A stretch of DNA of 64,000 nucleotides from Streptomyces phaeolivaceus. Lineage in GTDB: Bacteria; Actinomycetota; Actinomycetes; Streptomycetales; Streptomycetaceae. The notes under the pieces were generated by a model, which did not search any database, had not been told where the DNA came from, and was given only the letters and a program-made list of their open reading frames with translations. Below are positions 45,988 through 57,681 of this stretch, one piece after another (the stretch's first letter is position 1; every line of letters starts with the position of its first letter). The position numbers and the translations under genes were made by a program. The DNA is taken from positions 558,001 through 622,000 of the forward strand of contig NZ_CP045096.1 in NCBI RefSeq assembly GCF_009184865.1, read 5' to 3'.

Positions 45988-47217
45988 TCACAGCCGGACG
46001 ATCACGAGGGCCGTGTCGTCGGTGGCGCGGCCGGCGGGGAGGAGATCGACGAGGAGGGCGTCGGCCAGCGGTTCGAGACCGGCCCGGCGGTGACGGGCGA
46101 GCGCCTCGGCGAGACGGACGAGGCCGACGTCGATGTCCTCGTCCCGGCGTTCGATCAGACCGTCCGTGTAGAGGACGAGCCTGTCGCCCTCGGTGAAGTC
46201 GACGGTCGCCTCGGGGCGGGGAGTGTGTTCCGGACGGGCGCCGAGCGGTGGATCGGTGGCCTGGTCGAGGAGGACGACCGTGCCGTCGCGGCGCAGCAGG
46301 GCGGGCGGCAGATGTCCGGCGCTGCTGTAGGTGATCGTGTGGGTGTCCCAGTCGACGCAGGTCTGCACGGCGGTGGTGTTCTCGGCGCCCTCGACGGAGC
46401 GGGCGTACAGACCGAGCGCGTCCAGCGCCTCGGCGGGGCCGTCCGCCACCAGGGACGCGGCGCTCAGCGCGCTGCGCAGCTTGCCCATCACACAGGCGGC
46501 GGACAGACCGTGTCCGACGACGTCACCGACGGCGATGCCGATGCGGTCGACACCGGAGAGGTCGACGAGGTCGTACCAGTCGCCGCACACGTTCAGCGCG
46601 TCGGTCGCCGGCTGGTAGCGCACGGCGGCCCGGTGGTGGCCGAGCGGGTTGGGCGCGGGCAGCATCGCCTTCTGCAGGGCGAGCGCGACCTCCCGTTCAT
46701 GGGCGTGCGCCTCGCGCAGCCGTTCGTTGACGTCCTGGAGTTCCCGGGCGCGCGTGTACAGCTCGGCCTCCATCACCCGGGCGCGGTCGCCGGGGGCGCG
46801 CTCGCGGGCCCGGATCAGCTCGGTGACCTCCTCCACCTTGTGGATCAGCAGGACCACCTTCCCGTCGGAGTCGAGGAGGGGCGCGTTCACCGGGCTCCAG
46901 TACCGCTCCTCCCACTCCCCCGGCCGCTGCACCGACTCCACGTCGTAGCGCTGCAGTGCCATGGCGTCCCGTTCACCGGTCTCGACGACGCGGTTCAGGG
47001 AGGCCGCCAGATTGCGCATGCCGTTCGCGGTCGGGTCGCCGGGGTTGTCCGGGAAGACGTCGAAGAGATAGCGGCCGACGACCTGCTCACGGGTGCGGCC
47101 CGACATCCGCAGAAACTCCTCGTTCGCGTCCGCGTACACCAGCCCGGGTGTCAGCAGCGCCACCATGCCCGGCAGCGCCTGGAACACCGCCGCGTAGTCG
47201 ATCTCCGTATCCGCCAT
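45988..47217 (-). CDS. PAS-domain PP2C (SpoIIE-type) protein phosphatase
   Basis: 409 residues from ATG 47217. An N-terminal PAS sensor (VFQALPGMVALLTPGLVYAD, then GRTREQVVGRYLFDVFPDNP) is followed by a coiled-coil linker (about 140-175) and the PPM phosphatase (ALQKAMLPAPNP, NVCGDWYDLVDL, GIAVGDVVGHGLSAA, LVLYTDGLIERR, ATDDTALVIVRL). Metal-binding aspartates are all present. Such enzymes dephosphorylate anti-anti-sigma factors. It is downstream of, and on the same strand as, the polymer cluster. Confidence 0.92.
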   Translation of the reverse strand: MADTEIDYAAVFQALPGMVALLTPGLVYADANEEFLRMSGRTREQVVGRYLFDVFPDNPGDPTANGMRNLAASLNRVVETGERDAMALQRYDVESVQRPGEWEERYWSPVNAPLLDSDGKVVLLIHKVEEVTELIRARERAPGDRARVMEAELYTRARELQDVNERLREAHAHEREVALALQKAMLPAPNPLGHHRAAVRYQPATDALNVCGDWYDLVDLSGVDRIGIAVGDVVGHGLSAACVMGKLRSALSAASLVADGPAEALDALGLYARSVEGAENTTAVQTCVDWDTHTITYSSAGHLPPALLRRDGTVVLLDQATDPPLGARPEHTPRPEATVDFTEGDRLVLYTDGLIERRDEDIDVGLVRLAEALARHRRAGLEPLADALLVDLLPAGRATDDTALVIVRL

Positions 47218-47372
47218 GGTCGCCGCCTCAGCGTCCGTCGCGTTCCTGTGATCTCCACCATAGGAGCGGATGGCCGCCGGGGCGCGGTCCTGTTTCCACG
47301 AAAAAGTGCTGGTCACCCACGGTTGTGCGCCGGAGGACACAGCGTCGCCGGCGGGCGGGGTTCGCGCGCCGG

Positions 47373-47891
47373 TCAGCCCGCGGCGCGGAGCAGGATGTCC
47401 CGCGTCGACCCCATGCCGTACTTGTCCACGCGGCTGGACAGCGCCGCCGCCTCCCGCAGCAGGGGGCCGAGGTCGATGCCGGCCCGGCGCGCGTCCTCGC
47501 ACAGGTCGCGCAGGGCGAGCAGTTCGTCACGGGTGTCGGAGCCCTGGTCGACGGCGGAGAGGTGCGGCAGGCGCAGCCGGAAGCCGTCGGGAGTGGGTGC
47601 GAAGGCCAGACTCACGCCCCAGCGGAACGCGGTGTGGCGCGCGAAGAGGCCGCGCGGGGCCACCCGCGACGCGTCGTCACCGTCCGCGTACGCGGTGAGC
47701 ACGGCCCGCAGCACGGTCTCGGCCTCCGCCCGGACGCCCGCCTCGTCCATCGCGGAGGGCCGCTGCCGCATCCGCTCCTCCCAGCCGGGGTCGCCGATGT
47801 CCACGGGCTCCTCGGCGATGGGCCGCAGGGCCGCGTCCAGCAGCGCGACCCGCGCCTCGATCCCGGCGAGCCACTCCACGCCGTTCCCCAC
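47373..47891 (-). CDS. Hypothetical protein
   Basis: 172 residues from GTG 47891, which follows GAGGGGG by a good distance. The sequence is helical and charged, with no signal or membrane segment (GIEARVALLDAALRPIAEEP, GLFARHTAFRWGVSLAFAPT, LRDLCEDARRAGIDLGPLL). I do not recognise the family. A 23-bp tandem duplication covers the ribosome site and start, so a second, out-of-frame copy of the start signals lies just upstream. Confidence 0.65.
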   Translation of the reverse strand: MGNGVEWLAGIEARVALLDAALRPIAEEPVDIGDPGWEERMRQRPSAMDEAGVRAEAETVLRAVLTAYADGDDASRVAPRGLFARHTAFRWGVSLAFAPTPDGFRLRLPHLSAVDQGSDTRDELLALRDLCEDARRAGIDLGPLLREAAALSSRVDKYGMGSTRDILLRAAG

Positions 47892-47947: not shown

Positions 47948-48760
47948 TCAGCAGGGCTGTCGCCACACCCCGAGTTCCAGTCGCTTCACCATCGACGACA
48001 GCCGCAGTCTGCGGGACTCGGCGCAGAAGCTGCTCCTGGGTTCGGTGTACTCCACATGGAACACCGCCTTGCCCGCCTCGATGAACGGGGTGAGCCGTGC
48101 GCATTCGTCGTACTGGGCGCACTCCTCGTTGACCGCGAAGTCGAAGTCGGCCAGCAGCTGGGGGATCTGCGGCAGGTCGTTCTTCAGGCCCACCGACAGG
48201 CCGCGCTCATGGGCGATGTCGGCGATCATACGGTTGTATGCCAGCTGGTCCCGGGCGGTGAGCGGGAAGCCGGTGTCGTTGCCGTAGCCCTCCAGCAGAT
48301 CGGGCTCCACCGCGTCGAAGCCCTTGTCGCGGCACATGTCGAAGCGGCGTTCCATGAGGGGCCGCAGGACGTCCGACCGCCGGATGTCCAGCCATCGTTC
48401 GCCCGCCCAGCCGTTCTCCTCGCCGAGCAGGGCGCGCGGGAAGTCGTCCTTGTCGGGGCGGAAGTCCTCCCAGGCGCCGACGTTGATGTAGCAGATGACC
48501 TTGCGGCCGTCGCGGTGCAGCCGGGCCACGTCCGCCGCGGAGTTCTCGAAGCCGTCGATGTCGTAGACCGGTACGTCCGGCGAGGGGTCGACCTTGCCGT
48601 CCAGCTGCCACTGCCAGGCGAGACCGGGCCGGGGCCGCCACAGCGCCCTGGAGTCCGTCCCCTTGTCGCCGTCGCCGCCACCGTCACCGGTACAGCCCGT
48701 CAGCGTCGAACCCACCAGCGCGGCCAGCAGCACGAGACACACGAACGCCGGCCGCCTCAT
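47948..48760 (-). CDS. GH114 endo-alpha-1,4-polygalactosaminidase, lipoprotein
   Basis: 270 residues. Lipoprotein signal with lipobox LTGC and lipid on C23, so it is anchored outside the cell. The GH114 pattern is strong: VYDIDGFEN, VICYINVGAWEDFRP, WLDIRRSDVLRPLMERR, GFDAVEPD (D149, E152, D154), GLKND, FAVNEECAQYDEC, VFHVEY. Known members (fungal Ega3, the hydrolase domain of PelA) cut alpha-1,4-linked galactosamine. Its ATG overlaps the spherulin-4-like gene's stop. It is the last gene of the cluster and would trim or release the polymer. Confidence 0.9.
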   Translation of the reverse strand: MRRPAFVCLVLLAALVGSTLTGCTGDGGGDGDKGTDSRALWRPRPGLAWQWQLDGKVDPSPDVPVYDIDGFENSAADVARLHRDGRKVICYINVGAWEDFRPDKDDFPRALLGEENGWAGERWLDIRRSDVLRPLMERRFDMCRDKGFDAVEPDLLEGYGNDTGFPLTARDQLAYNRMIADIAHERGLSVGLKNDLPQIPQLLADFDFAVNEECAQYDECARLTPFIEAGKAVFHVEYTEPRSSFCAESRRLRLSSMVKRLELGVWRQPC

Positions 48761-49443
48761 CCTTCAGTCCCTCGGTCCGTACCTCGATCCGTTCCGGTGA
48801 GGGCGGGGGTCAACTGGGCCCAGGGGTTGGGGGGTTCACCGGTGACCGGGCCGCAGACGGCGGCGCCCCGGTCGTGCGCGGTGCGGACGGCGAGCGGGAC
48901 GAGGGCCTCGGGGACGCCGTAGACGAGGTGACAGAGCCGCTCGGGTGGATGCCGGGCGGCCCAGGCGGGTCTGCTGAACGCCGACACGTACGTCGACCAG
49001 TGACCCTCGAAGGTGACGGTCAGGTCGGCGAGGCGCGCGTACCCCGGGGCCGGGTGGACCCCGGGGTTGAGGACGACGGTCCCGGCGCCGAGTCGGCGTA
49101 CGGCCCGGACGAGCCGGCGGCAGGCGGGCAGGGCGTCCGGGGTGGCCGTCACCCGGTCGAGGAAGCAGCCGTCGGCCGCGTACCACTCCTGGTGACGGCG
49201 TACGTCGTCGGCGATCTCGGCGCGGTCGCGCACCCCGTAGTCGGTGTCGACATAGCCGAGCAGCCGGGCCCCGGCCGCGCGCAGGGCCCCGGCCGCCGCC
49301 GTGAAGGCGGGGTCGGGGCCGTCGCCGGGGCCGTTCGCGGGGTTGAGGACGACGCCGTACGTACGGGTCGCGGCCCGGATCAGCCGGTGCCAGGCGCCCG
49401 GGTCCTCGGCCGGGTGGACGTACAGCGGGATCAGCAGGCTCAC
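48757..49443 (-). CDS. Spherulin-4-like protein (GH135-related)
   Basis: 228 residues from GTG 49443, overlapping the epimerase stop. It has the spherulin-4 pattern: LIPLYVHPAEDPGAWHRLI, YGVVLNPANGPG, LLGYVDTDYGVR, WYAADGCFLDRV, VVLNPGVHPAPGYARLADL, VTFEGHWSTYVS. The fungal relative Sph3 is a galactosaminogalactan hydrolase whose gene sits in the same cluster as its synthase. No signal peptide is visible, so a cytoplasmic or non-classically exported enzyme is likely. The C-terminus ends in a short TDRGTDRGT repeat. Confidence 0.88.
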   Translation of the reverse strand: MSLLIPLYVHPAEDPGAWHRLIRAATRTYGVVLNPANGPGDGPDPAFTAAAGALRAAGARLLGYVDTDYGVRDRAEIADDVRRHQEWYAADGCFLDRVTATPDALPACRRLVRAVRRLGAGTVVLNPGVHPAPGYARLADLTVTFEGHWSTYVSAFSRPAWAARHPPERLCHLVYGVPEALVPLAVRTAHDRGAAVCGPVTGEPPNPWAQLTPALTGTDRGTDRGTEG

Positions 49444-50420
49444 GGCGTACGGTCACCCGCCTCGCCGCGCCCGGCGCTCCCTTCCCGTCCGCTCCCCCAC
49501 AGCGCGGTGAGCGCGTCGTCGAGCGTGTGGACCGGCCGCCAGCCGAGCGCCGCCTCGGCGGCGGTGATGTCGGAACACTGCCAGGACACATCGGCCGACC
49601 GCACCGAGCCGAGGACGTGCGCCGAACCGACCGCCCCCGTCCCCCCGCGCGCCCCCGCGCCCAGCGCGTTCTCCTCGATCCGGCCCCGGAAGCCCGCCTT
49701 GGCGGCCAGGCCCCGGACCAGCTCGCGGACCGGGACGGCCCGGCCGGCGCCGATGTTGAGGACGGGGGGCAGCGGACCGGGAGCCGTGGCCGCGCGCGCG
49801 ACCGCTCGGGCGACGTCGCGTACGTCGACGAAGTCGCGGTACGCGGAGAGGTCGCCGAGCGGGAGTACGGCGTCGGGGTCCTGGCCCGCCGTGCGGAGCA
49901 GGCCGGCGATGCGGCCGGGCAGGCCGGTCGGCGGGGCGCCGGGGCCGACCGGGTTGCCGACCCGCAGGACCACCGCGTCCAGGCCGGACGTGGTGACGGC
50001 GACCGTGCCCGCGAGCTTGGTCGCGCCGTAGGGGGCGAGCGGGCGGGTGGCCGCCGATTCCGTCACCCGGACGTTCGGGACGCCGGGCCCGTACTCGGCG
50101 GCCGAGCCCAGATGCACCAGTCGGGCGCCGGGGACGGCCTCGCGGAGCGCGGCGCACAGGACCGCGGGGCCGCGGGCGTTGACCTCGGCGAGGGTCACGG
50201 GATCGCCGCCGGTCGCGCCCGCGCAGTTGACCACGGTGTCGGGCGCGGCCGTCGCCAGGATCTTCGCCAGTTCCGGTGCGGTGACGGTGGCGAGGTCCAC
50301 GGTGTGGTCGGCGGTGGGTCCGCGTCCGCCGCCGAGGACCAGCGCGCCCGGCAGGGCACGCAGCCCCTCGACGACATGGGTGCCCAGATAGCCGGTGTGA
50401 CCCAGGACGAGAATGCGCAT
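49440..50420 (-). CDS. NAD-dependent sugar epimerase/dehydratase (extended SDR)
   Basis: 326 residues. Rossmann start MRILVLGHTGYLGTHVVEGL, then LVHLGSAAEYGPG and the active-site pair PYGATKLAG (Tyr and Lys), DFVDVRDVARA and ALGWRP near the end. Extended SDRs make 4-epimers or deoxysugars of nucleotide sugars. With the neighbouring nucleotidyltransferase it probably supplies an activated sugar to the glycosyltransferase. Seven bases separate it from the nucleotidyltransferase gene. Confidence 0.88.
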   Translation of the reverse strand: MRILVLGHTGYLGTHVVEGLRALPGALVLGGGRGPTADHTVDLATVTAPELAKILATAAPDTVVNCAGATGGDPVTLAEVNARGPAVLCAALREAVPGARLVHLGSAAEYGPGVPNVRVTESAATRPLAPYGATKLAGTVAVTTSGLDAVVLRVGNPVGPGAPPTGLPGRIAGLLRTAGQDPDAVLPLGDLSAYRDFVDVRDVARAVARAATAPGPLPPVLNIGAGRAVPVRELVRGLAAKAGFRGRIEENALGAGARGGTGAVGSAHVLGSVRSADVSWQCSDITAAEAALGWRPVHTLDDALTALWGSGREGSAGRGEAGDRTP

Positions 50421-50427
50421 GTGGTGC

Positions 50428-51141
50428 TCAGGCTCCCTTGAGCAGAAGCGACTTGCGGGTGGTGAACTCGGCGTTGGCCCGGTCGTAGTCGTCGGGGCGC
50501 CCTATGTCCAGCCAGTATCCGTCGAAGTCGTAGGCGTGGGGCTGGTTCTGAGCCCTGATCAGATCGAGGACCAACTCGTCGAAGCCCAGCGGCAGTCCGG
50601 GGGTGTAGTCGTTCAGGGTGGAGCGGGAGACGCCGTAGACGCCCATGGAGACGCGGTAGTCCATGCTCGGCTTCTCGGTGAAGGCGACGACCCTGGAGTT
50701 GTCGGTGGTCAGCACCCCGAAGTCGATGTGGACCTTGCGGGCGTAGGTGGCGATGGTGAGCGGTGCCCCGGACTCGCGGTGGTGGTGCAGGACGTCGGCG
50801 TAGTCGAGGTCGGTGAGGATGTCGCCGTTCATGACGAGGAACGACTCGGGCAGCCGCTCGCGCAGGTTGAGCAGGGGGCCCATGGTGCCGAGGGGGCTCT
50901 CCTCGGTGGCGTAGTCGACGGTCAGGTCCCACTGGGAGCCGTCGCCGACGTAGGCGCGGATGATCTCGCCGAGGTGGCCGATGGCGATGGTGACATGGGT
51001 GAAGCCGGCGGCGGAGAGCTGGCGCAGCACGATCTCCAGGATGGCGTGCTGGTCGCCGATGGGGACGAGCGGCTTCGGCAGCGCGGTCGTGTAGGGCCGC
51101 AGCCGGACACCCTTGCCTCCCGCCAGGATCACTGCGTGCAT
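50428..51141 (-). CDS. Sugar-1-phosphate nucleotidyltransferase
   Basis: 237 residues from ATG 51141. The signature is complete: MHAVILAGGKGVRLRPYT and PKPLVPIGDQ, the metal site VMNGDIL, VAFTEKP, and the ending YWLDIGRPDDYDRANAEF. It forms an NDP-sugar from NTP and a sugar-1-phosphate. The lack of a C-terminal beta-helix excludes GlmU-type bifunctional enzymes. It lies between two epimerase genes, all co-directional. Confidence 0.92.
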   Translation of the reverse strand: MHAVILAGGKGVRLRPYTTALPKPLVPIGDQHAILEIVLRQLSAAGFTHVTIAIGHLGEIIRAYVGDGSQWDLTVDYATEESPLGTMGPLLNLRERLPESFLVMNGDILTDLDYADVLHHHRESGAPLTIATYARKVHIDFGVLTTDNSRVVAFTEKPSMDYRVSMGVYGVSRSTLNDYTPGLPLGFDELVLDLIRAQNQPHAYDFDGYWLDIGRPDDYDRANAEFTTRKSLLLKGA

Positions 51142-51200
51142 GGTGCTCCTCCTTCGTCGAGGTGCTCACGGATGTGCTTCGCGGATGTGCCGGACGGGAG

Positions 51201-52202
51201 TCAGATGTTGTAGATGGCGGTCTTGTAGCGGGCGAGGTTGGCCGGGTCGCGGAAGAACTCCACGGTGTGCGCGAGGCCTTCCTCCAGGGTGTGCGCGGGC
51301 CGCCAGCCGGTGGCGGCGGTGAGCCGGGTCGCGTCCGCGACCAGCCGCATCACCTCGGAGCCCGCGGGCCGGATGCGGGCCTCGTCCTCACGGACGTCGA
51401 GTTCGCTGTCCATGACCTTGCCGATCAGCGCGACGAGGTCGCCGATGGAGATCTCGCCGCCGGTGCCGGCGTTGAAGGTGCGGCCCACGACCTGTGCGGC
51501 GGGCGCGGTGCCGACGGTCAGGAACGCCTGCGCGGTGTCCTTGACGAAGGTGAAGTCCCGGGTGGGGCGCAGATCGCCGAGGGTGATGGTCCGCTCCCCC
51601 GCCGCGACCTGGCCGATGACCGTGGGGATCACCGCGCGCATCGACTGGCGGGGCCCGAAGGTGTTGAACGGTCTCAGGGTCACCACGGGGGTGTCGAAGC
51701 TCGCGTGGTAGCTGTCGGCGAGCCGGTCCCCGCCGGCCTTCGAAGCGGCGTACGGGGACTGGGTGTTGATGGGATGGTCCTCGGTGATCGGCACGGTCCG
51801 GGCGGTGCCGTAGGTCTCGCTGGTGGAGGTGTGGACCAGGCGGGGCGTGCCGAGGGCGCGGACGGCCTCCAGGACGTTGAGGGTGCCGGTGACGTTGGTG
51901 TCCACATAGCTGTGCGGTGCCTGGTAGGAGTACGGGATCGCGATGAGGGCGGCCAGATGGTAGGCGGTGTCGGCGCCGTCGAGGAGGCCGCGCACGGAGC
52001 CGGGGTCGCGGACGTCGCCGAGGACGATGTCGACCTGGTCCAGGACGTCCGGGTGCAGGGTCTCCAGCCAGCCGTAGGAGGAGAACGAGTTGTACTGGGC
52101 CATGGCCCGGACCCGGTGGCCGGCGGCGACTAGTGCCTCGGTCAGATGGGAGCCGATGAAGCCCTCGGCTCCGGTGACGGCGGCGATCGGTGCGGAGGTC
52201 AA
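51201..52202 (-). CDS. NAD-dependent epimerase/dehydratase (GDP-mannose dehydratase-like SDR)
   Basis: 333 residues from TTG 52202, chosen because GGAAGGA precedes it. The sequence opens AAVTGAEGFIGSHLTEAL and contains LVHTSTSETYGTA, the catalytic pair in YAASKAGGDRL, LRPFNTFGPRQSMRAVIP and RDFTFVKDTAQAF. The spacing of the Thr-Tyr-Lys triad is normal. It likely interconverts or dehydrates an NDP-sugar, possibly a 4-epimerase giving a galacto sugar, by analogy with Uge3 in the fungal cluster. Confidence 0.9.
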   Translation of the reverse strand: MTSAPIAAVTGAEGFIGSHLTEALVAAGHRVRAMAQYNSFSSYGWLETLHPDVLDQVDIVLGDVRDPGSVRGLLDGADTAYHLAALIAIPYSYQAPHSYVDTNVTGTLNVLEAVRALGTPRLVHTSTSETYGTARTVPITEDHPINTQSPYAASKAGGDRLADSYHASFDTPVVTLRPFNTFGPRQSMRAVIPTVIGQVAAGERTITLGDLRPTRDFTFVKDTAQAFLTVGTAPAAQVVGRTFNAGTGGEISIGDLVALIGKVMDSELDVREDEARIRPAGSEVMRLVADATRLTAATGWRPAHTLEEGLAHTVEFFRDPANLARYKTAIYNI

Positions 52203-52272
52203 CTGGTGTGTCCTTCCGGTCAGTTGGATGTGGGGGGTGGTGTGGTGAAGGTCGTGGGCGAGCCCCGGGGGC

Positions 52273-53691
52273 TCAGGCGTGCGGCGCGGGCCGGCCGAGC
52301 AGCCGCAGCACGCACGCCGACAGACAGAGCGCGGCGGCGGCGCAGCACAGTGGCAGTGCCGAGTCGGCCGGTGGCGGGCGCAGCAGGGTGACCGCCCCGG
52401 CGGCGCCCGCCGCGGCGAGACAGATCGCGGCCGACGGCCAGGCCGCCCCGAACGCCTGGAGCAGCAGCGCGGTCCACAGGACGGCCGCGAGCAGGAGCAG
52501 GGGTACCGGGTCGGCGCCGGTGAGCCGGGCCGCGGGCAGCAGGGGCAGCAGATAGGCGAGCAGGCAGAGGCCGAGGATCCCGGCCGAGCGCAGCAGGAAC
52601 GCCGCGGGTGTCGCGGCGGCCCGCAGCGCGGCGACGGACAGTCCTCGATAGCGGTAGAGCAGCCATTCCGCCGGGCCCATGCTGACCGTCAGCACGATCA
52701 CCGCGTACGGCTCCTGCCGGCCCTCCAGCAGCACCAGCACCCCGGCGGCCAGGCCGAACAGGCCGTACGGCAGCGACCACAGCAGGCGCGGGCGGCGGGC
52801 GTCCGGGACGGCCGGGGTGGCGAGGACGGTCCGCAGGGTCCGGCCGGTGACGGCGAGGGTGGCGAGCAGGGCGAGGAGGGGCAGCCCGGCGCGCGGCCAC
52901 GGTCCGGGGTCCCACCAGGACAGGACGGCGGCTCCGACGACCAACGGGCTGAGTGCGGCGAGGAGTTGGCGTTCCCGGCCGAGGACCAGCAGGACTCCCG
53001 CCGCCGCGAGGTACGCGGACTGCGCGGCGGCCACCAGGGTCACCGGGCCGCCCTCGGCGGGCAGCGCGGAGATCGCCGTGGCGACCACCGCTCCGACGGG
53101 GGCGCCGGTCAGGAGCGTACGGCCGGCCTCGTGCCGCCCGGTCGCCATCCGCAGATGGGCGCGGTGGCCGAGGGCCTGGCCCCAGGCCCAGGAGACGAGT
53201 CCGGCGACGATGAGGGCCGGGGCGTGGACGCCGGGGTTCCACAGCGGGGCGGTCAGCAGATAGGCGAGGCCCGGCAGGGCGAAGAGCACGCCCCGCAGCA
53301 GACAGCGGACGGTGTCCGGGCGCCAGGGATCGGCGGTCGCGGCCGGTTCCGGGAAGGTCCTGGGCACCCGTTCGTAGAGTGCCGAGGCGAGCGAGAACAG
53401 GTTCGGGTGGCCGTACCGTTCCTTGATGGCGGCGGCGGACAGGCCCTCCGCCTCCAGCAGGGCGGCGACCTCGTAGGGGTGGACGGCCGGGCCGACGCGG
53501 TCGGCGAGTTCGGCGGCGAGTTCGCTGACGGCCTCCTCGTCGGGACCCTGTCCCGGCAGCCGGATGGTGAGGGTGGTGTCGTCGGCGAGGGCCCAGCTGG
53601 GGCGGCGGCGCGGGCGGCGCCGGTCGGCCAGCCGGATGGCGAGGGTGTCCTGTTCGACGCCTCCGGGTTCGAGTGACATGGGCCCGCTCAT
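52273..53691 (-). CDS. 12-helix membrane protein with cytoplasmic N-terminal domain, candidate polymer exporter
   Basis: 472 residues; ATG 53691 overlaps the glycosyltransferase stop, with another ATG at 53679. Residues 1-115 are soluble (HPYEVAALLEAEGLSAAAIK and ERYGHPNLFSLASALYERVP). After that come about 12 hydrophobic helices. The helix count and position next to a PelF-like transferase resemble PelG, the flippase-like partner, but I see no firm sequence match. An exporter or synthase membrane subunit is the best inference. Confidence 0.8.
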   Translation of the reverse strand: MSGPMSLEPGGVEQDTLAIRLADRRRPRRRPSWALADDTTLTIRLPGQGPDEEAVSELAAELADRVGPAVHPYEVAALLEAEGLSAAAIKERYGHPNLFSLASALYERVPRTFPEPAATADPWRPDTVRCLLRGVLFALPGLAYLLTAPLWNPGVHAPALIVAGLVSWAWGQALGHRAHLRMATGRHEAGRTLLTGAPVGAVVATAISALPAEGGPVTLVAAAQSAYLAAAGVLLVLGRERQLLAALSPLVVGAAVLSWWDPGPWPRAGLPLLALLATLAVTGRTLRTVLATPAVPDARRPRLLWSLPYGLFGLAAGVLVLLEGRQEPYAVIVLTVSMGPAEWLLYRYRGLSVAALRAAATPAAFLLRSAGILGLCLLAYLLPLLPAARLTGADPVPLLLLAAVLWTALLLQAFGAAWPSAAICLAAAGAAGAVTLLRPPPADSALPLCCAAAALCLSACVLRLLGRPAPHA

Positions 53692-55214
53692 CCGGCCACC
53701 GTGCTGATCGGGGCCGGCGTCGCCGCCGGGACCGCCGCCACCGCCGTGGCCGTCGACAGCGTCGACTGCCTTTCCAGGGTGGGCAGTTCGAGGTAGATGG
53801 AGCGGAAGGTGTCGATGGTCCGGCGGAGGGTGAACTGCTCGATCACCCGCAGCCGTGCCGCCTCCCCCATCGCCCGGCGGCGCGCGGGGTCGCCCAGGAG
53901 TTCCAGCGCGGCCTTCGCCATGGCCTCCGGGTCGCGCGGCGGCACCACGAGCCCGGTGCCGCCGACGGCCTCGCGGACGCCGCCCACATCGGTGGAGACG
54001 GTGGCCCGCCCGCACGACATGGCCTCGATCAGGGTGAACGGGAAGCCCTCGCTGATGCTGGAGAGCATCACGATGTTCCCGGCGGCGTAGGCGTCCTTGA
54101 TGTCGTCGACACGGCCCTCGAAGGTGACCGCGTCGGCGTGCCCGAGTTCGGCGGCGAGGGCCTCGCAGCGTTCCCGGTAGGCCTCGCCGCCGCGTGGGGT
54201 GCCGCCGAACAACCGCAGCCGTACGTCCGGGAGTTGGGCCCTGACGAGGGCGAACGCCCGGATCAGGGTCTCCAGGTCCTTGATGGGGTCGACGCGGCCC
54301 GCCCAGCTGAGGGTGAGCGCCTCCGGCTCGGGCCCGGCGGGCGGGAACGCGGCGGGATCGACGCCGTTGTAGACGGTGCGGATGGACTCGGGGTCGGCGC
54401 CGCCCTGTTCCTCCCAGAGCCGGTTGTAGCGGTTGCCCGGGGTGATCAGGGCGGCCCTGCGGTAGGTCTCCTCGGCGAGGAGGCGGAAGAAGCCGAGGAC
54501 GACCGCCTTGACGGGCCAGCGGTAGGGGGCGGTGCGGTAGCCGAGGTAGCGCTCGCGCAGATAGACGCCGTGTTCGGTCAACAGCAGGGGTACGCCGTGC
54601 CGTTGGAGGGCGGCGAGGCCCGGGAGGACGGCGACTCCGCCGCTGACCGCGTGCGCGACACCGGTCTCGGGCGGTGGCGCGGCCAGCGGGCGCAGGGCGT
54701 GTTCCAGCAGGGAGGTCGCGGTGAGCGCGTCGTGCAGGGTGGGCCGGGCCTCGCGTACGGCGAGGCCGGGGCGGTTCCAGACGGCGGTCAGCTGGGCGAT
54801 CGCCCGGTCCGAGCGCAGGAACGGGCTGAGTGTGCCGTCCGCCGCGGCCCCCGCCAGCTCGTACAGGGCGGGCCCGAACCCGCTCTCGGCGCCCGGGTCG
54901 AGCAGCGCGGTGAGGAACCGCTCGTAGGCGGTGGTGAGCCGGTGGCGGGCGCTGCCCCGGGGCGGGCGGCCCTCCGGGGGGTCGCCCCACATGGGGACGG
55001 ACAGCACCCGGGAGACATGGGCGGGCAGGTCCCAGACGACGGGTTCGCGTCCGGTTCCGGTGACCGCGATGACGTCGAAGTCGAGGTCGGGCATGCCCTG
55101 GACGAGCTGGTCGCACCAGACGCTCACGCCGCCGTGACTGTGGGGATAGGTGCCTTCGGTGAGGAGGGTGACGCGCGTCGCGCCGAGTCGGCGCGCGTCG
55201 TGAGGAACAGGCAT
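53688..55214 (-). CDS. GT4 glycosyltransferase, PelF-like
   Basis: 508 residues. The N-terminus carries the PelF-type loop LLTEGTYPHSHGGVSVWCDQ. The donor domain contains SWAGRVDPIKDLETLIRAFA, VTFEGRVDDIKDAYAAGNIV and SSISEGFPFTLIEAMSCGRA (the EGFP/E-x7-E nucleotide-sugar pocket). PelF is the soluble UDP-sugar transferase of the Pel galactosaminoglycan system. Fungal clusters use a different membrane synthase. The last 30 residues are an Ala/Thr/Pro tail. It is 106 bp downstream of the deacetylase gene and coupled to the membrane protein. Confidence 0.9.
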   Translation of the reverse strand: MPVPHDARRLGATRVTLLTEGTYPHSHGGVSVWCDQLVQGMPDLDFDVIAVTGTGREPVVWDLPAHVSRVLSVPMWGDPPEGRPPRGSARHRLTTAYERFLTALLDPGAESGFGPALYELAGAAADGTLSPFLRSDRAIAQLTAVWNRPGLAVREARPTLHDALTATSLLEHALRPLAAPPPETGVAHAVSGGVAVLPGLAALQRHGVPLLLTEHGVYLRERYLGYRTAPYRWPVKAVVLGFFRLLAEETYRRAALITPGNRYNRLWEEQGGADPESIRTVYNGVDPAAFPPAGPEPEALTLSWAGRVDPIKDLETLIRAFALVRAQLPDVRLRLFGGTPRGGEAYRERCEALAAELGHADAVTFEGRVDDIKDAYAAGNIVMLSSISEGFPFTLIEAMSCGRATVSTDVGGVREAVGGTGLVVPPRDPEAMAKAALELLGDPARRRAMGEAARLRVIEQFTLRRTIDTFRSIYLELPTLERQSTLSTATAVAAVPAATPAPISTVAG

Positions 55215-55320
55215 CGGTGTGCTCCACGGCCGTGGTGGGGGGGGTGGTTCCCGGTGATTCCCTGCCGGTCCCGGCCCGCCGGTCCGGCGGCCGGGACGGC
55301 TGGTGGGCGGGTGCCGCGGG

Positions 55321-57474
55321 TCAGTCGTCCGCGGTGTCGGTGTCCGTGGTGTACGGCACTCTCTCGCGCACGCCCGCGGGGACGCGGGTGTCCGGCGCGG
55401 GTTCGGTGGTCCCGGCGGTGTCGGCGGACCCGGTGGTGACGCCGGCCGTGGTGGCGGCGGACGTCGGCAGGGCGAGGTCGAGGGTGTCGCCCGAGGAGGG
55501 GGTCCAGCCGGAGACGGCGCCCGCGTAGGCGTCGCCGAAGGCGGTGCCGGCGAGTGTGGTGCCGGTGGGCGCGGTGACGGTGACCGCCAGCCCGTCCGGT
55601 GCCTCGACGGTCACGGTGTCGCCGATGCGGTGGGCGGTGACCTCACCGGCCTGGAGGGCGGCCTGCCAGGCGGCCCTGCGCCGCAGTTCGGCGCCGATGT
55701 CCTTCATCCGCAGGTTGACCACGGGGGTGTTCTCGGCGAACAGGGCCGCGTAGCCGTCGAGGACGCCGTCGAGCACCGGATAGGCGATGCGGTCCTCGGC
55801 CAGGTTCGACTGGTGGATGAAGTGCGGTTTGGGGTCGTTTGCGAGGACGTGGCCGAGGGCGATCCGCTTCTCCAGCGGCACGATGACCTCGTCGTAGCCG
55901 GTGGCCGTGTCCAGCGGTGCCGTGAGGCAGGTGGTGGTGGCCGGGTTGTCCTCGCAGATGCCGCTGCCGCCCTGGGCGCGGCCGGTGTAGATCCAGTTGT
56001 ACTCGTCGACCTGTTCGGCGGCCCGGCCGGCGTTGTAGAAGACGTTCATCGGGTAGCGGGGGACGGTGGTGGCGGGGCCGACCTGACGCTGGGCGGGCTC
56101 GCGGGAGTTGTCGGAGCCGAGCCAGGCGATGTCGTTGTCGTCGAGGGCGAGCGCCAGATTCGGGTTGTCCACGGGCTGTTGCGGCAGCACCTTCATGCCG
56201 GAGTGCTCACCGGTGACCAACTCGCCGTTCTCCAGGGGGAGTCCGGCACTCTCACCCCAGACCCGGTTGGTGGCGATCTCGTCGGAGATGTCGTTCCGGC
56301 TGACCCACTGGGTCGAGCCGTCGGCGTTGGTCGCGCACCTCCAGGGGACCACGCTGGTGTCCTGGACGCAGCCGAGGAAGGGGTGCGAGTAGGTGTGGTT
56401 GATCCAGCGGAACTGGTTGCGGTCCGCGAGGAACTTGTCGGTGAGCGCGTCGTCGCCGTTGTTGTCCTCGCGGTGGTCGACGCTGCCGGCGCCGTTGTAC
56501 GCGAGGTCGAGGGTGAAGTTCTTCGCGGTCTGCCAGGCGGTGGCGTGGTCGACGTCGTCCGGGGTCATCCGGATGGGGTCGGGTTCGACGTTCGGGTCGG
56601 TGCAGTCGACGTCGCCCGGTGTGCAGTTGAGTTCGGTGTTCCAGCGGTCGTCGGCGGCGAAGACGTCGTCGACGTGCACGGCGAAGTAGTTCCGTGAGGC
56701 GCCCAGATGGACTCCGCCGGTCATCCACTCGACGATGCCGCGGGCCAGCAGCCGGAACTGCTGCTGGTACTGGTTGTAGACGAAGGTGACGACGAGTTCG
56801 CGCCGCCCGTCGTGCCGGTACTCGCCGACCAGTGAGCCGCGGGTGGACTGGCCGGGGATCGCCGCGTCGACGTAGGACGTGAAGTCTGCGCCCGCCACCG
56901 GTCTCGACAGGTAGGCGTAACTCTCGCCGACGGCCGGGTCGTTGTCCTCGAAGGGCACCGCGCCGTCGAGATAGCCGAAGGGGCCCGCCTGCCCGGCGTC
57001 GGTCACCTGGGCCTCGACGCCGTCGAGGCCGCCTGAGTAACCGCCGTAGATCGGGTACTGCAAACCGGCTTCTGGACGCGCGTAGGTGTAGGCGTCGACC
57101 TGGGGGATCGCGTACGTCTGCTCGTAGGTCGCGAGCGCCGTCATCTCGGTGGAGCCGGCCGGGAACGGGTTGTCGTTGGGCAGCACCACGGCCTGGTACT
57201 TGGCGCGTGGGCGGCCGTCGACGGTGTCGGCGAGGAAGCCGGCGTCGATGACGGGCCGGCCGGCGCTCGTCAGATCGATCTCGGTGTACGGCGTGCCGGC
57301 CGCGGTGAGTTCGGCGGCTATCGCGTCCGTGGACGGGCCGCCGTCGCTCACCACCAGGACCCGCAGGTCGATGCGGGGTGCGGTGTCGTCGGCCTGCGCC
57401 GGGCCGGCCGGCAGGCCGAGCGCGGCGATGAGCGCGCCCACCGTGAGCACGGCGGTGCGTAAGGTCCGCTTCAT
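55321..57474 (-). CDS. Secreted Agd3/CE18-like polysaccharide deacetylase
   Basis: 717 residues with GGGGAGGGG before ATG 57474. Sec signal peptide ending near PAGPAQADD. A beta-rich N-terminal domain precedes a NodB-like deacetylase with YFAVHVDDVFAADDRWN (metal Asp pair at 269-270) and NHTYSHPFLGC (metal His at 360 and 364). A beta-rich domain and a Thr/Ala tail follow. This layout matches fungal Agd3 (CE18), which deacetylates galactosaminogalactan. It is the first gene of the eight-gene cluster and the only one with a large leader region. Confidence 0.82.
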   Translation of the reverse strand: MKRTLRTAVLTVGALIAALGLPAGPAQADDTAPRIDLRVLVVSDGGPSTDAIAAELTAAGTPYTEIDLTSAGRPVIDAGFLADTVDGRPRAKYQAVVLPNDNPFPAGSTEMTALATYEQTYAIPQVDAYTYARPEAGLQYPIYGGYSGGLDGVEAQVTDAGQAGPFGYLDGAVPFEDNDPAVGESYAYLSRPVAGADFTSYVDAAIPGQSTRGSLVGEYRHDGRRELVVTFVYNQYQQQFRLLARGIVEWMTGGVHLGASRNYFAVHVDDVFAADDRWNTELNCTPGDVDCTDPNVEPDPIRMTPDDVDHATAWQTAKNFTLDLAYNGAGSVDHREDNNGDDALTDKFLADRNQFRWINHTYSHPFLGCVQDTSVVPWRCATNADGSTQWVSRNDISDEIATNRVWGESAGLPLENGELVTGEHSGMKVLPQQPVDNPNLALALDDNDIAWLGSDNSREPAQRQVGPATTVPRYPMNVFYNAGRAAEQVDEYNWIYTGRAQGGSGICEDNPATTTCLTAPLDTATGYDEVIVPLEKRIALGHVLANDPKPHFIHQSNLAEDRIAYPVLDGVLDGYAALFAENTPVVNLRMKDIGAELRRRAAWQAALQAGEVTAHRIGDTVTVEAPDGLAVTVTAPTGTTLAGTAFGDAYAGAVSGWTPSSGDTLDLALPTSAATTAGVTTGSADTAGTTEPAPDTRVPAGVRERVPYTTDTDTADD

Positions 57475-57516: not shown

Positions 57517-57681
57517 AGGGGGTGTTTCGAGGGTCCCGTGCGGTGCCCGCGGTGTCCGGTGTGTGCTCTCGGCGCGCCGGACGAAAGTCCTCGTACTGGA
57601 CGTACTTGGGCTTTCGGCCGGTGCGGCGAGAGCGCGTGCCGGGCGCCGCGGGTGCTGTGCGGGACCCTCGAAACACCCCCT
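57517..57681. repeat. 165-bp palindromic repeat with 21-bp perfect ends
   Basis: Ends at 57517-57537 and 57661-57681 are exact inverted copies (AGGGGGTGTTTCGAGGGT start). The interior is also largely palindromic, with GGACGAAAGTCC against GGGCTTTCGGCC and a centre at GTACTGGACGTAC. It has no coding content. It has the form of a MITE or a REP-like element and sits directly upstream of the deacetylase gene's leader. The right end again abuts TAGAG, giving CCCTAG at the border as in the other element. Confidence 0.85.

Follow-up and report, generated by a model that had tools for sequence, protein, structure and literature searches.

A Streptomyces gene cluster related to galactosaminogalactan and Pel operons, with a putative 6-deoxysugar module

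Cationic polymers of the galactosaminogalactan (GAG) and Pel types serve Aspergillus and several bacteria as biofilm adhesins. The GAG cluster of Aspergillus fumigatus comprises the genes uge3, sph3, ega3, agd3 and gtb3. Agd3 homologues have been reported from 45 bacterial species, and in 30 of the 35 included in a tree the gene lies within or close to an operon of carbohydrate-active enzymes (Bamford et al., 2020; PMC7229062). According to the same report, all bacterial agd3 operons identified encode a cytoplasmic glycosyltransferase (GT) and a multi-spanning protein, a GH114 protein is highly consistent, and spherulin-4 proteins occur in some Actinobacteria; transfer from bacteria to fungi is already discussed both there and by Lee et al. 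(2016; PMC4817252). Here we analyse a cluster of this kind in Streptomyces phaeolivaceus, located in a stretch of 64,000 nt (contig NZ_CP045096.1, positions 558,001 to 622,000; hereafter the window) with a G+C content of 72%, in a genome of 10.18 Mb and two contigs. An initial annotation of the window had recognized eight minus-strand genes with 4-base overlaps and had proposed that they make a galactosamine polymer. The genes, which span 57474 to 47948, were exactly as described, with three such overlaps (Table 1). They encode, in order, a carbohydrate esterase (CE), a PelF-type GT (PelF), a membrane protein (TM), a short-chain dehydrogenase/reductase (SDR1), a nucleotidyltransferase (NT), a second short-chain dehydrogenase/reductase (SDR2), a spherulin-4 protein (Sph4) and a GH114 protein.

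Like the operons of Bamford et al. (2020; PMC7229062), the cluster combines a CE18 homologue, a cytoplasmic GT, a multi-spanning protein, a GH114 protein and the spherulin-4 protein of some Actinobacteria. The bacterial cluster announced in the initial annotation was therefore already known: the observation is not new, the same gene combination having been reported for bacteria in 2020, and the interpretation, which holds in part, had for the most part been published. Four features are not described in section 13 of that paper: the presence of two paralogous cluster types (A and B) in one genome, a module of 4,6-dehydratase, NT and SDR in type A, the MOP fold of the membrane protein and an apparently non-secreted GH135 protein; some of the genes may appear in its Fig. 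8c or supplements. Searches of open-licence PMC full text gave nothing further on type A clusters, which does not in itself establish their absence from print. We propose, at a rough probability of 0.45, that the type A cluster is a GAG/Pel-like synthase operon in which the module feeds a 6-deoxysugar into the polymer made by PelF.

The relationship to the A. fumigatus cluster is seen in the homologues of Agd3, Ega3 and Sph3, all of which keep their catalytic residues (conserved-residue counts refer to aligned rows covering at least 60% of the query). The GH114 protein scored 293.1 bits against PF03537 (cut-off 27) and aligned with the Ega3 structure 6ojb at an E value of 2.6e-55, with 92 of 203 aligned residues identical (45%); its catalytic D154 and E212 are present in 61/61 rows, and its hydrophobic N terminus ends in LTGC, which we take to be a lipobox. 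Sph4 scored 121.7 bits against PF12138 (cut-off 30.2) and matched the Sph3 structure 5c5g (E 3.3e-15), with catalytic D96 and E146 in 80/80 rows. The family assignment made earlier for the GH114 protein was thus upheld by its profile. The deacetylase of the window, taken by itself, reached 21.1 bits against the Pfam model Agd3_CE (PF25115), below the curated cut-off of 27.6, yet has the three-domain Agd3 fold. It is a divergent relative, which we therefore call Agd3-like and do not file as a curated PF25115 member; a single-sequence search of the PDB with it did not return Agd3, the relation being visible only by profile and fold. Among 22 aligned relatives, 16 match Agd3_CE at E<=0.01 (best 1.5e-16), and in the alignment D269, D270, H360, H364 and H554 occur in 94/94 rows and R473 in 93/94. 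The CE18 motifs (Asp-Asp, HxxxH, Arg and a late His) are all kept, with roles assigned by analogy with PelADA and Agd3 (PMC13254593); the enzyme is predicted to remove acetyl groups from a GalNAc-type polymer. PelF itself lies over the NCBIfam equivalog cut-off (NF038011, 171.6 bits versus 100), matches PF11997 with 210 bits and has E389 and E397 in 90/90 rows.

Profiles, folds and catalytic residues thus bear out the earlier claim that CE18-, PelF-, GH135- and GH114-type proteins stand together in one putative operon, and this combination makes a secreted, partly de-N-acetylated hexosamine polymer the likely product. Its genes very probably serve to synthesize, export and trim a sticky polymer of amino sugars akin to that of Aspergillus biofilms. 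GAG-type enzymes, here two hydrolases and a deacetylase, might also be expected of a cluster that degrades the galactosaminogalactan of other organisms, such as fungal competitors, and makes no polymer itself; this we consider very improbable, because the PelF-type GT, the MOP-fold protein and the sugar-nucleotide enzymes look biosynthetic, Sph4 shows no secretion signal by hydropathy and an importer domain was found by Pfam in none of the eight proteins.

In its membrane component the cluster differs from both known systems. In A. fumigatus a single putative transmembrane glycosyltransferase, Gtb3, is present (PMC4817252), whereas in Streptomyces the GT and the membrane protein are separate. 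The pelDEADAFG operon of Bacillus cereus (PMC7112168) is closer in layout, with a PelF GT, a three-domain Agd3-like deacetylase, a membrane translocase and a separate hydrolase, but the Streptomyces cluster has no PelG sequence homologue and its deacetylase is of the CE18 type, PelADA being the founding member of family CE26 (PMC13254593). TM has the 12-helix fold of MATE/MOP flippases. We rejected its identification as PelG by sequence, hhalign against three PelG sequences giving a probability of 0.1%; PelG (PF16933) had no match in the S. phaeolivaceus genome and exceeded its cut-off in 3 of 296 genomes of the phylum, Pfam gave one chance-level match among 30 relatives, and a PDB profile search gave none. 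No Pfam domain among the eight proteins suggests PelD or PelE, for neither of which a dedicated search was made. PelF bears out the likeness to Pel drawn in the initial annotation, but with no PelG found the cluster is, strictly speaking, no Pel locus. Residues about 50–110 of TM form a small conserved N-terminal helical domain that belongs to no named Pfam family.

The Streptomyces cluster has no clear Uge3-like epimerase, and it carries an additional NT and putative 4,6-dehydratase. The best NCBIfam model for SDR1 is LegB (TIGR04180, 447.9 bits), followed by RmlB (164.8 bits) and GalE (137 bits); since the LegB cut-off is 475, we do not file the protein as LegB. The published signatures are [ST]SExnYx3K for GDP-mannose 4,6-dehydratase (GMD) and [ST]xnYx3K for GalE (PMC8987622, Table 1). 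SDR1 has the former, including the Glu of GMD: T127-S128-E129 is present in 78/79 rows, and Y151 and K155 in 79/79. The sole row without the TSE triplet is the SDR of locus L120, a GalE over its cut-off, which with L121 makes up two rows that are merely distant SDRs. We therefore rejected SDR1 as GalE or as a counterpart of Uge3; against the galE model (cut-off 262.3 bits) SDR2 scored still lower, with 44.6 bits. With a dehydratase signature in SDR1 and both SDRs below the GalE cut-off, the product may be something other than plain galactosamine, and of the original proposal it is the secreted, partly de-N-acetylated hexosamine polymer that stands.

The layout of NT, dehydratase and SDR, with the SDR1 signature, resembles LegB and GMD pathways. 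Campylobacter jejuni LegB works on GDP-GlcNAc (PMC7439481), which fits an NT nearest to guanylyltransferases (PF00483, 136 bits; NF052502, 145.2 bits with a cut-off of 440; PDB matches 7whr and 7d72). A complete legionaminic acid pathway was rejected, because Pfam found neither an aminotransferase nor a NeuB-type synthase among the eight proteins. SDR2 matches PF01370 (132.3 bits) and has GSA[AG]EYG in 76/76 rows; galE was its best NCBIfam model and none came near its cut-off, and its PDB matches include UDP-glucose 4-epimerases as well as the reductases 2pk3 and 6x3b, of GDP-4-keto-6-deoxysugar type. SDR2 may thus act within the module as its reductase, or it may supply GalNAc as an epimerase, and since its role is ambiguous, the case for a 6-deoxysugar is carried by SDR1 and NT. 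From their sequences the module would make a nucleoside diphosphate (NDP)-6-deoxysugar, probably a 6-deoxy-N-acetylhexosamine because the remaining cluster is of hexosamine type. UDP-GalNAc could also come from three GalE homologues over the cut-off, whose genes lie in other parts of the genome.

The module is a constant part of the type A loci compared. Our locus set comprised the best-scoring 80 of 559 CE-profile matches, 80 Streptomyces loci that are therefore all near type A; gene order is conserved throughout these 80, SDR1, NT and SDR2 each occur in 71, and the remaining nine, which lack the module, are interrupted by a contig end. In 71/71 assessable loci its genes are part of the operon, with TM on one side and Sph4 on the other. 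The same genome carries a second cluster, B, at C2:2.390-2.397 Mb (L033, G000:C2:2382000-2401900), in which CE, PelF, TM, Sph4 and GH114 are 42–70% identical to their counterparts in A and the module is absent. Type B is known from five loci around a CE plus CE matches of about 60% identity; the five have CE, PelF, TM and Sph4 in 5/5, SDR1, NT and SDR2 in 0/5, and GH114 in 2/5 (L033 and L036). The 31 PelF proteins placed in a tree include 22 of type A and five of type B, and each type occupies one side of a branch, with support of 96/96 and 100/99, respectively; long outgroup branches make the outgroup placement unsure.

These comparisons bear on a simpler explanation, namely that the cluster makes a plain bacterial GAG/Pel polymer of alpha-1,4-linked GalNAc/GalN, with or without galactose. 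Epimerization would then fall to SDR2 (or SDR1), and the other module genes would adjust sugar supply or add a minor cap. Cluster B, with the same enzymes and no module, is in its favour, as is the fact that characterized CE18, GH114, GH135 and PelF relatives make or act on GalNAc/GalN polymers (PMC7229062, PMC12054363, PMC7112168). The GAG-like locus L120 (G006), from another family, has two Sph4 genes and, next to PelF, a true GalE that scored 337 bits (cut-off 262.3), like the fungal Uge3. A third locus of the S. phaeolivaceus genome, C, at C2:7.10 Mb (L184, G000:C2:7098000-7113000), pairs an SDR2-like protein (43.6% identical) with a PelF-like GT (81.7 bits, below the cut-off), a TM-profile match and Sph4, without SDR1 or NT; no CE or GH114 match was found there either. 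On the other side stand the dehydratase Glu of SDR1 and its distance from GalE, and a dispensable supply step would hardly be expected in all 71 loci of the set that are not cut before it and in none of the five B loci. We regard a plain polymer as a real possibility, if a somewhat doubtful one.

Alternatively, the 6-deoxysugar might serve a different glycan, such as a cell-wall glycopolymer or a glycoprotein, the module being merely a neighbour of a GAG-like operon. In favour of this, the eight genes include no second GT, and the surroundings of an NT orthologue in locus L155 (G196) gave no match to CE, TM or Sph4 and an SDR1 match of only 29% identity. The position of the module within the operon at all assessable loci, and its relatives adjoining PelF in other families (L118 and L121), make this explanation improbable. 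L118 has PelF, TM, SDR1 (67%; LegB again the best model, with 458.3 bits), NT (64%), SDR2 (42%), Sph4, CE and two GH114 genes; L121 has CE, PelF, TM, NT, SDR2 and a distant SDR; and L119, also from another family, had no SDR or NT match. The variation among L118–L121 indicates that sugar supply differs among otherwise similar clusters.

Under the reading that we favour, in which the module feeds the PelF polymer, NT and SDR1, with SDR2 or another reductase, would produce a nucleotide-linked 6-deoxysugar, most likely GDP- or UDP-6-deoxy-N-acetylhexosamine. PelF would polymerize it on the cytoplasmic side, alone or with UDP-GalNAc from GalE enzymes of other loci (SDR2, if an epimerase, being another possible source), and the MOP-fold protein would carry the chain across the membrane. 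Chains that are nascent or have stalled may be trimmed or released by the cytoplasmic GH135 protein. Once exported, the CE18 enzyme would strip acetyl groups to give a cationic polymer, and at the cell surface the GH114 lipoprotein would cleave its deacetylated stretches. Such a polymer would serve as an adhesin or matrix of the hyphae. A more specific version, which we consider unlikely though worth stating, is that type A makes an undescribed cationic exopolysaccharide that is alpha-linked and contains a partly de-N-acetylated 6-deoxyhexosamine (for example N-acetyl-D-fucosamine, that is, 6-deoxy GalNAc), beside an ordinary GAG-like polymer of cluster B in the same cell, with GH135 acting on the nascent chain in the cytoplasm.

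Several points weigh against this proposal. The polymer is predicted here from genes, and a 6-deoxysugar, if made, might decorate the chain as a substituent or be part of a different glycan. SDR1 falls just short of the LegB cut-off, models of MurU, HddC and GlmU type match NT as well, and the nearest solved structures of SDR2 include 4-epimerases. The SDR2 relative of locus C adjoins PelF, TM and Sph4 in a locus lacking the other two module genes, so that SDR2 need not use the product of SDR1. Polymers of GalN/GalNAc are the substrates of characterized GH114 and GH135 enzymes, none of which, to our knowledge, acts on 6-deoxy sugars. The location of Sph4 is predicted from hydropathy, and some A loci lack CE or GH114.

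As regards Sph4, homology to Sph3 starts near the N terminus, residue 3 being already aligned, and the window open reading frame has no further in-frame start upstream. By hydropathy, a candidate start with a hydrophobic N terminus is present in 5/80 loci for Sph4, compared with 53/60 for GH114 and 88/93 for CE; Sph4 is therefore predicted to be, and probably is, a cytoplasmic enzyme. Loss of sph3 abolishes GAG in Aspergillus for a reason stated to be unclear (PMC7329490), and an unsecreted GH135 protein bears on that question: if the prediction is right, action of GH135 on the nascent chain could explain why Aspergillus needs Sph3 to make GAG. If one cell does make two polymers, one with a 6-deoxyamino sugar, these clusters would offer a tractable bacterial model for the building, trimming and diversification of such polymers, which could matter for hyphal adhesion, pellet formation and association with roots or insects.

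The cluster is common in Streptomyces. In an even sample of 150 genomes of the genus, CE (E<=1e-100) was found in 68, Spherulin4 in 100 and SDR1 (E<=1e-120) in 35. Of 394 genomes sampled across the class, 28 had a CE match (E<=0.001) and 21 an NT orthologue (E<=1e-70), the latter being 18 from the same genus and three from others. Among the 35 Streptomyces genomes with SDR1, CE lies beside it on the same contig in 29. In G756 and G802, CE (85 and 77% identical to that of the window, respectively) is on another contig and SDR1 is within about 1 kb of a contig edge. The other four (G101, G678, G781 and G729) lack CE beside SDR1. In a comparison that left out matches under 35% identity, the first three keep matches from PelF to Sph4 with no whole CE at the locus (the TM match of G101 is in two frames), and G269 and G293, from the class-wide sample, likewise lack a whole CE there. 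Across the loci L153, L154, L156, L185 and L186, CE is gone or a remnant while PelF, TM, SDR1, NT, SDR2 and Sph4 matches stay; short CE remnants are left in L156 (G293) and L185 (G678). Deacetylation in trans is possible in these five genomes, as each carries another CE elsewhere, 59–63% identical. The locus of G729 (L187, C1:1070000-1086000) is a decayed A-type locus with pieces of CE, SDR2 and Sph4 beside SDR1, and it had no PelF, TM or NT match of at least 35% identity.

Table 1. Genes of the type A cluster, with positions in the window
Product	Position	Strand	Features
CE18/Agd3-type polysaccharide deacetylase (CE)	55321..57474	-	717 aa; hydrophobic N terminus (signal peptide); three-domain Agd3 fold
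PelF-type GT4 glycosyltransferase	53688..55214	-	508 aa; DUF3492 + GT4
MATE/MOP-fold membrane protein (TM)	52273..53691	-	472 aa; small N-terminal helical domain; presumed polymer translocase (PelG analogue)
SDR1, putative nucleotide-sugar 4,6-dehydratase, LegB-like	51201..52202	-	333 aa
NT, putative sugar-1-phosphate nucleotidyltransferase	50428..51141	-	237 aa; nearest to mannose-1-phosphate guanylyltransferases
SDR2, SDR of epimerase/4-keto-reductase type	49440..50420	-	326 aa
GH135/spherulin-4 domain protein (Sph4)	48757..49443	-	228 aa; no signal peptide seen; probably cytoplasmic
GH114 endo-alpha-1,4-galactosaminidase-type lipoprotein	47948..48760	-	270 aa

The nearest relatives of the window proteins are from Streptomyces, including S. 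griseiscabiei and S. caniscabiei. The start codon of CE is preceded, at a distance of 42 bases, by an imperfect palindrome of 165 bases (57517-57681) with two 80-nt arms that are 79% complementary. This interspersed repeat resembles a miniature inverted-repeat transposable element and has 30 matches in the same genome (itself and reverse-strand matches included), two further copies being nearly full length at 86% identity. Because it is interspersed, and because we found no copy there in the relatives examined, we set aside a regulatory role for it. Downstream of the cluster, on the same strand, a PAS/SpoIIE-phosphatase protein is encoded at 45988-47502.

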